Assembly (NCBI GenBank): GCA_003388555.1 | Contig: QQVD01000063.1 | Coordinates: 1 to 46,798 of the forward strand | Source: Acidobacteriota bacterium | GTDB lineage: Bacteria; Acidobacteriota; Thermoanaerobaculia; Multivoradales; Multivoraceae | Length of the DNA: 46,798 nt | Direction of reading: 5' to 3' | Part shown: positions 46,265 to 46,798 of the stretch, piece by piece | Layout of the letters: every line of letters begins with the position of its first letter | Numbering within the stretch: position 1 is the first letter of the stretch | Translations under genes and position numbers: made by a program | The notes under the pieces: generated by a model | Seen by the model: the letters and a program-made list of their open reading frames with translations, nothing else | Told to the model about the DNA's origin: nothing | Database searches by the model: none

Positions 46265-46356
46265 GGAGAGGTGCCGGAGTGGTCGAACGGGCCGGCTTGC
46301 TAAGCCGTTGTACTGGGTAACTGGTACCGAGGGTTCGAATCCCTCCCTCTCCGCCA
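46265..46356 (+). tRNA. tRNA-Ser (anticodon GCU)
   Basis: A 92-base class II tRNA with encoded CCA. Acceptor GGAGAGG pairs fully with CCTCTCC, the discriminator is G, the anticodon loop contains TTGCTAA, the long variable arm is TTGTACTGGGTAACTGGTACC-like, and the T arm is GAGGG-TTCGAAT-CCCTC. The anticodon reads AGC/AGU serine codons. Confidence 0.95.
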
Positions 46357-46358
46357 AG

Positions 46359-46375
46359 CTCCCGCTTGGCGGGAG
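46359..46375 (+). terminator. Hairpin directly after tRNA-Ser (possible terminator or processing signal)
   Basis: CTCCCGC-TTG-GCGGGAG, a perfect 7-bp stem with a 3-base loop, starts three bases after the tRNA CCA. No T tract follows, so it may aid 3' processing rather than act as a classic terminator. It also forms the first, best preserved linker of the repeat array. Confidence 0.4.
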
Positions 46376-46378
46376 GGA

Positions 46379-46798
46379 GGGATTCTCGGCGGCGCTTCGC
46401 CGCTAGCGGCGAAGCTGGGCACCGAATCCCTGGACTCCTGCCACAGAAAGCTCACGCTTGCCGGGACGGAGGGATTCTCGGCGGGCTCGCTGGCGCAAGA
46501 GCCAGCGTTTGGCGGCGAATCCCTGTCTCCTGCTACGCAAAGCTCACGCATCCCGGCAAGGGAGCTAGGGATTCTCGGCGGCGCTTCGCCGCTAGCGGCG
46601 AAGCTGGGCACCGAATCCCTGGACTCCTGCCATAGAGAGCTCACGCTTGCCGGGACGGAGGGATTCTCGGCGGGCTCGCTGGCGCAAGAGCCAGCGTTTG
46701 GCGGCGAATCCCTGTCTCCTGCTACGCAAGCTCCCGCATCCCGGCAAGGGAGCTAGGGATTCTTGGCCGCGCTTCGGCGCTAGCGGCGAAGCTGGGCA
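46379..46798. repeat. Alternating palindromic repeat array (A-B-A-B-A) downstream of tRNA-Ser, continuing past the window
   Basis: Units start with GGGATTCT(C/T)GG at 46379 (A), 46471 (B), 46568 (A), 46660 (B) and 46756 (A, cut by the edge). A units are 92 bp and B units 96-97 bp, giving a higher-order period of about 189 bp. Each unit has GGGATTC at the left and GAATCCC about 45 bp later, enclosing a hairpin: in A a 22-bp perfect palindrome centred on CGCTAGCG, in B the stem CGCTGGC/GCCAGCG. Linkers share CTCCTGC and AAAGCTCACGC-type words. Open frames through it simply repeat and show no coding character. Confidence 0.92.

Follow-up and report, generated by a model that had tools for sequence, protein, structure and literature searches.

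A tRNA-linked tandem repeat array behind tRNA-Ser(GCT) in an Acidobacteriota bacterium, resembling the tRNA-linked repeats of Escherichia coli

Structure of the array behind tRNA-Ser(GCT)

The window analysed here, which is the entire contig C45 (46,798 bp) of an assembly of 74 contigs and 6.8 Mb, ends in a tandem array of palindromic units that begins immediately 3' of the CCA of tRNA-Ser(GCT) and extends to the contig end at position 46798. This array is a TLR-like variant, of a kind of tRNA-linked repeat (TLR) known from E. coli since 1978. In each complete unit the upstream tRNA's own 3' tail is present twice, once inverted and once direct, in partly decayed form, and a hairpin lies between adjacent copies. 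In E. coli, TLRs were first described almost fifty years ago, yet neither their function nor their origin is agreed upon. Their layout is common to Acidobacteriota, haloarchaea and scattered members of other phyla, with the inverted tail as the shared part, and this makes them a comparative problem. The parts of the window array are as follows:

46224..46253, plus strand: sigma-70-like promoter match TTGACG-18-TATAGT, 5' of the tRNA (1 found against a shuffle mean of 0.0; consensus match only)
46265..46356, plus strand: tRNA-Ser(GCT) with encoded CCA (ARAGORN; Rfam RF00005)
46337..46385, plus strand: hairpin H1, the tRNA 3' tail (46337-46356) paired with the inverted copy 3' of it (folding and inverted repeats)
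46373..46385, minus strand: inverted tail copy 1 (GAGGGAGGGATTC), 13/13 to tRNA GAATCCCTCCCTC (exact reverse complement)
46379..46567, plus strand: AB pair 1 (189 bp), 185/190 identical to pair 2
46379..46430, plus strand: hairpin H2 of type A, copy 1 (GGGATTC...CGAATCCC), z -3.62
46423..46443, plus strand: direct tail copy 1, 13/20 nt equal to the tRNA tail
46462..46477, minus strand: inverted tail copy 2, exact run of 10 nt, 16/20
46471..46523, plus strand: hairpin H2 of type B, copy 1, z -3.62
46516..46536, plus strand: direct tail copy 2, 11/20
46560..46574, minus strand: inverted tail copy 3, run of 8 nt, 13/20
46568..46756, plus strand: AB pair 2 (189 bp), 185/190 identical to pair 1
46568..46619, plus strand: hairpin H2 of type A, copy 2 (core pattern, folding)
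46612..46632, plus strand: direct tail copy 3, 13/20
46651..46666, minus strand: inverted tail copy 4, run of 10 nt, 16/20
46660..46712, plus strand: hairpin H2 of type B, copy 2 (core pattern, folding)
46705..46725, plus strand: direct tail copy 4, 11/20
46749..46763, minus strand: inverted tail copy 5, GGGAGCTAGGGATTC like copy 3 (sequence)
46757..46798, plus strand: hairpin H2 of type A, copy 3, cut at the contig end and more diverged (38/43 to A2)

The units are arranged in the sequence A1 B1 A2 B2 A3 (cut), i.e. two AB pairs and a truncated A3 up to the contig end; in relatives, arrays reach up to 8 units. TRF reports a period of 92 at 46356-46744 and a period of 189 at 46371-46798 (96% matches), in agreement with the initial annotation, which had placed the start of the array next to the CCA and described two alternating hairpin types. 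It had also proposed expansion by duplication of an AB pair, and pairwise alignment bears this out: A1 and A2 agree at 90/92 positions, B1 and B2 at 95/98 and the two AB pairs at 185/190, whereas A1 and B1 agree at only 73/102. The AB blocks are so much more alike than A is to B that a two-unit block must have been copied.

The tie to the tRNA tail turned out to be stronger than the complementarity between the array's opening and the T-arm that had been noticed before, as the stretch 46373-46385 is an exact reverse complement of 13 nt. Inverted copies 2-4 retain exact runs of 8-10 nt with the tRNA-Ser tail. The direct copies were said to follow the order of the tRNA tail in every unit, which is correct in part. 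None of 5000 shuffles matched the tail as well as the B-type closer does, and beyond the common 9-nt core only 6/5000 did so. For the A-type closer the corresponding numbers are 12/5000 and 473/5000, and its likeness is therefore significant because of the 9-nt core alone. The view that the array arose from the tRNA tail, or stays matched to it, is supported.

Folded as RNA, H1 comprises 49 nt with -45.2 kcal/mol (z -8.55); z is -3.62 for the A and B hairpins and weaker, at -2.05, for the direct-to-inverted stretch at 46423-46477 (matched by 6/200 shuffles). RNAalifold on pooled hairpins of differing length found few covarying pairs (1, 3 and 5). A terminator scan for a G+C-rich stem followed by a T-run found no site at 46030-46798.

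The two genes nearest the array encode a transketolase, which adjoins tRNA-Ser(GCT) on the opposite strand, and a SLOG-type protein. An open reading frame of 114 aa at 46300-46644 on the minus strand, ending in GRGRDSNPRYQLPSTTA, runs across the tRNA antisense and the array; it is probably a spurious protein of the kind annotated opposite tRNA genes. Elsewhere the window holds a 12-bp tandem repeat at 6317-6408 (7.7 copies, 98%) and a 10-bp tandem repeat in five perfect copies at 19224-19273.

Arrays at other tRNA genes of the same genome

The initial annotation had suggested looking for copies at other tRNA genes, and the same architecture is indeed present at further tRNAs of the genome. All 41 tRNAs found were surveyed for the longest exact run of their own tail within 150 bp downstream, a measure taken because a full 20-nt ungapped tail score split the arrays poorly. 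Exact inverted copies of the own tail were found at five of them (13 nt at Ser-GCT, Glu-TTC, Ala-GGC and Ala-CGC; 11 nt at Gly-TCC), and the inverted run did not exceed 7 nt at the remaining 36/41. With the tails of other tRNAs tested at the same places as a control, runs of at least 11 nt occurred in 1/1632 pairings and runs of 13 nt in none. A sixth tRNA, Arg-ACG, has a direct tail copy of 20/20.

All six of these tRNA-linked arrays reach a contig end. Of the assembly's 148 contig ends, 7 are found no more than 450 bp behind the 3' end of a tRNA, where about 0.4 would be expected by arithmetic, and 6 of them fall within arrays; the seventh, 149 bp behind Gln-TTG, has no array. It seems that short-read assemblies tend to break at such arrays, immediately after the tRNA gene.

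A seventh array, that of tRNA-Glu(CTC), lies 13.8 kb away from its tRNA and beside a truncated copy of the same tRNA. The intervening DNA carries genes for a PF00589 tyrosine integrase and a DnaB-like helicase, and forms a prophage-like island of about 13.8 kb (contig C17:131683-145592; L352, L353), at the far end of which the truncated tRNA copy retains the tail array. We infer that the island was inserted into tRNA-Glu(CTC) and displaced its array. The eighth array stands without a tRNA at the start of contig C22 (1-400; L349/L354), and its tRNA probably lies in the assembly gap. The core of this orphan array reads GATTCGGCGGTC, as in relatives; most other arrays of the genome have GATTCTCGG.

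When the array DNA itself was searched in its own genome and 147 other genomes, it retrieved itself and two short matches (27-30 bases) elsewhere, and blastn against phages retrieved none. The arrays have their layout rather than their sequence in common, so pattern searches were needed. In 8 genomes the core-pattern sites adjoin a tRNA or a truncated tRNA tail, the reversed pattern giving 0 matches. The wide scatter of units away from tRNAs that would speak against the association was thus not seen. There are two exceptions, the orphan array opening C22 and one site in genome G004 that lies inside an open frame of 812 aa. Partial Y1_Tnp domains occur in three open frames (408-448 aa) clustered within 9 kb on contig C21 of the window's genome (100285-109111).

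Distribution among relatives

For the class we used a pattern composed of the T-arm, 25-55 nt and the inverted half of the T-arm, applied to 148 genomes. It is present in 31/148 genomes and in 21/24 of the family, two of these 21 probably by chance; the reversed pattern is present in 0/148. In the 46 matches the pairing extends beyond the 7 conditioned bases (mean 4.2/5, against 1.56/5 in 1750 cross pairings), with 37 of them paired at 4 or 5 of the next 5 positions. Seven matches, including those of G002 and G004, pair at 2 or fewer of these positions and are probably due to chance.

Copy number and presence vary between congeners at one and the same tRNA, and the arrays remain tied to tRNA tails. 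Within one genus, Gly(TCC) is followed by one unit in most species shown, by 3 in G010 and by 8 in G015. Glu(CTC) of the same genus has 7 units in G010 and none in ten species (G001, G004-G008, G014, G017, G019 and G020). The arms of the Glu(CTC) hairpin change on both sides with pairing kept (CTCATTGGCGC/GCGCCAATGAG versus CACATCAGCGC/GCGCTGATGTG). Four inverted tails are found behind Ala in G024, and five behind Glu-TTC in G010. Such differences between congeners offer direct tests of unit gain. In G010, a genome assembled as a single contig, an inverted own tail of at least 10 nt occurs at 3/44 tRNAs and a direct one at 2/44 (controls: 16/1884 inverted, 22/1884 direct), and the direct tail at Glu-TTC is 19 nt long. 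One locus among the relatives (L116:1102-1218, minus strand; contig C34 of G046) also contains a c-di-GMP-I-GGC riboswitch just above the gathering score.

Distant bacteria, haloarchaea and viruses

A scan of named genomes with the pattern of tail, inverted tail and tail again returned at least 116 stretches, 80 of which were examined for tail identity. Among the matches listed (80 stretches, 83 matches), the ten following bases of the second tail are those of the tRNA in 42/83, compared with 117/6800 pairings between loci. Among these 42 listed matches, 32 come from haloarchaeal records and 10 from others, all MAGs, with one or two each from Bacteroidales, Lachnospiraceae, Gemmatimonadota, Patescibacteria, Chlamydiae, Thermoplasmata and Acidobacteria. 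Several Bacteroidota and Chlorobiota matches look like neighbouring tRNA genes instead and were rejected as arrays.

The complete chromosome of Haloferacaceae archaeon XH8 was surveyed for 35 tRNAs out of 55 tRNA matches. Direct own-tail copies of at least 10 nt within 300 bp were detected at 14/35 and inverted ones at 10/35 (controls: 68/1184 direct, 49/1184 inverted); 2 of the 14 come from loci fetched through the pattern and the other 12 from the tRNA list. The inverted copies match the individual tRNA, and several tRNAs have direct tails of 18-20/20. The haloarchaeal core pattern is found in 90/243 genomes (reversed control 0), and 27/30 sites fetched directly follow a tRNA encoded on the same strand.

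Arrays at different tRNAs of haloarchaea have core motifs in common (GTCGCAGC...GACCGTC and CAGGGA...GACCGT), and GATTCGGnGGTCGC is a core motif at the level of the order. The core motif GATTCTCACC is found in Bacteroidales, Lachnospiraceae and Gemmatimonadota (L183, L208). Likewise, the arrays of a Bacteroidales MAG (L150, 346-700) and a Lachnospiraceae MAG (L164, 20-210) have the same GATTCTCACCCC core start behind different tRNAs, Ser-TGA and Ala-GGC, respectively. These common cores may reflect horizontal transfer. The GGATTCTCACC core was detected in 1/295 Bacteroidales genomes, namely its source genome, and is thus rare in that order.

No convincing array emerged from the viral-contig scans. 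The three-part pattern gave 0 matches in IMG/VR, and the 16 stretches with the GGATTCTCACC pattern were discarded as arrays; each lies in an open frame (111-1104 aa), and no tRNA was detected with them. The haloarchaeal pattern gave two stretches in viral contigs, L401, which has a tRNA-Ser-like tail, and L402. Passages of PMC3119063 report that prophages left incomplete tRNA copies behind in a haloarchaeon, and make no mention of arrays. Among the records listed by a literature search made without the term 'tRNA-linked repeat', none described such arrays outside Enterobacteriales and Pasteurellaceae, so that the wider distribution can be called unpublished as a weak claim at most.

Origin and maintenance of the arrays

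We consider it slightly more probable than an even chance that the window array is a tRNA-linked tandem repeat of the TLR/tyrT type which grew in place by duplication of palindromes at the DNA level and is near-neutral or mildly selfish. Tail copies would arise at fold-back DNA through template switching (a step that we infer), palindrome correction or local gene conversion with the tRNA tail, and the same events would keep them matched to that tail. Array length could go up or down via slippage or unequal recombination between repeats, and the arrays would be maintained as local repeats that are near-neutral or mildly selfish, with any trailer RNA as a by-product that may occasionally be co-opted. 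Such growth fits the palindromic layout, the copied AB block and the changes in copy number. We also count for it the own-tail specificity (5/41 versus 1/1632), the likeness of the AB pairs, the two-sided stem changes, the layout of E. coli tyrV and the contig breaks.

Some observations count against a purely DNA-level origin. Lineage-specific core motifs at different tRNAs are unpredicted by purely local formation, and would require movement from one tRNA to another or selection for the motif. Among isolated stem mismatches, G.T outnumbers A.C by 77 to 50, which is the direction expected under RNA-level selection and leans against the DNA-level account. By analogy, the rRNA-operon TLRs of E. 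coli, being transcribed, bound by Hfq and CsrA and structurally conserved, would also argue against it. The conserved core motifs and the G.T excess keep two other readings alive, one based on RNA and one on a recombinase.

According to the first, which we regard as doubtful, transcription from the tRNA promoter runs on through the array and the product is processed to structured small RNAs, or H1 competes with tRNA folding and thereby regulates maturation. H1 is very stable and takes in the whole tRNA tail, the window gave no intrinsic terminator between the tRNA gene and the array, and the two-sided changes preserve stem pairing. Passages of PMC8144298 describe the rrA, rrB and rrF TLRs of E. 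coli as processed RNAs that bind Hfq and CsrA, and RtT relatives seen as RNAs in Actinobacillus are reported in part of PMC4986893; by analogy, read-through RNA from the window array is possible. The G.T excess, however, rests on the haloarchaeal H2 hairpins (44 versus 24, where 34 T-G mismatches are perhaps fixed motif positions), as elsewhere the counts are 33 versus 26. Moreover, L150 and L164, from two other phyla, have a T-run hairpin between tRNA and array (that of L150 was not scored by the terminator scan). These hairpins speak against a general trailer RNA, though only 4/126 parsed arrays have five consecutive T ahead of the inverted tail. The patchy presence among congeners points the same way, as does the starvation phenotype of the tyrT-tyrV repeat, later assigned to a nearby reading frame according to the account in PMC8144298.

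The second reading, which we think unlikely, takes each unit as a folded site of a site-specific recombinase that recognises the T-arm, with units entering and leaving at the tail, loosely like attC. Conserved stem-base motifs around variable hairpins, the strong tie to tRNA tails and the T-arm copies in both orientations are in line with it. tRNA tails are classic integrase targets, and the same genome contains the island with a PF00589 integrase that displaced an array at tRNA-Glu(CTC). On the other hand, the window array shows a copied AB block rather than single-unit additions, its two nearest genes are not recombinases, and units of about 94 bp leave no room for cargo. The IMG/VR scans also weigh against it, since the three-part pattern was absent and all core-pattern matches were in open frames without a tRNA.

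A broader proposal, to which we likewise assign a low probability, would see in all these arrays a cross-domain class of tRNA-gene parasites. They would be fold-back elements that copy the host tRNA tail in both directions, have cores specific to each lineage and pass between tRNAs and between organisms, bacteria as well as haloarchaea. A dedicated mechanism, acting by recombination or on single strands, would process them, and the E. coli TLRs would be one enterobacterial branch.

That the array belongs to a family of REP/BIME type mobilised by a RAYT transposase, and sits at tRNAs by happenstance, appears very improbable. To our knowledge, own-tail specificity is not a REP property. Alternating palindromic units are BIME-like, and rtT-like elements are noted among enterobacterial BIMEs in part of PMC2965389. 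The array DNA is nevertheless not dispersed, and the core sites in 8 genomes are, with two exceptions, tied to tRNA tails. As for the link to a REP-type transposase raised in the initial annotation, nothing came to light beyond three partial matches to Y1_Tnp (PF01797), all on the unrelated contig C21 and away from the arrays. Finally, hairpins are common after tRNA genes, but ordinary terminator hairpins with a chance likeness to the tail are a practically negligible explanation, refuted by the comparisons of own and other tails, by the lack of terminator-like sites at 46030-46798 and by the reversed-pattern controls (0 in 148, 8 and 243 genomes).

Comparison with known repeat systems

The window array shares with BIME/REP elements its palindromic units in alternating orientation, but differs in being tied to tRNA tails instead of dispersed, and in having the sequence of the tRNA itself. 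Integron attC sites and tRNA attachment sites are palindromic sites with a conserved base and a variable hairpin, and the T-arm can act as such a site. The array is similar in these respects; it lacks an adjacent integrase and cargo.

A description of this layout does exist, contrary to the earlier impression that none was known: the TLR/RtT repeats of E. coli have it, with the inverted tail in 3/3 tyrV units. At tyrV, direct 19-nt tails are located at +159, +337 and +515, and the inverted tail GGGGAAGGAT at +59, +237 and +415; an inverted run this long in the first spacer was seen in 5/2000 shuffles. RtT (RF00391) therefore offers the same type of locus and the same layout at tyrT/tyrV, where the covariance model gave 4 matches (L242), but the window, like 19 other sources searched, has no match to it at the gathering score.

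In the passages of PMC8144298 that deal with them, TLRs are first described in 1978, number 22 copies at ten loci with one to five units per locus, and have 18-19 bp per copy identical to the tRNA or rRNA end. The same passages state that the rRNA-operon TLRs (rrA/rrB/rrF) are transcribed, processed, bound by Hfq and CsrA and structurally conserved, having earlier had no known function, and that the starvation phenotype of the tyrT-tyrV repeat was later attributed elsewhere (PMC8144298). RtT relatives were detected as small RNAs in Pasteurellaceae, as far as part of PMC4986893 covers them.

The window array resembles the TLRs in that it is tandem, immediately follows a tRNA gene of the same orientation, uses its own tail at each locus and has a copy of that tail in each unit; the three tyrV units of E. 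coli have an inverted tail as well. It differs in the length of its direct tails (8-9 nt exact, 11-13/20, against 18-19), in its units of about 94 bp in AB pairs (178 bp in E. coli), in its first inverted tail (13 nt exact, against 10 in E. coli) and in belonging to another phylum. Since its direct tails fall short of the 18-19 bp of the strict definition, we call the window array TLR-like rather than a TLR; Arg-ACG of the same genome, at 20/20, has a direct tail of that length.
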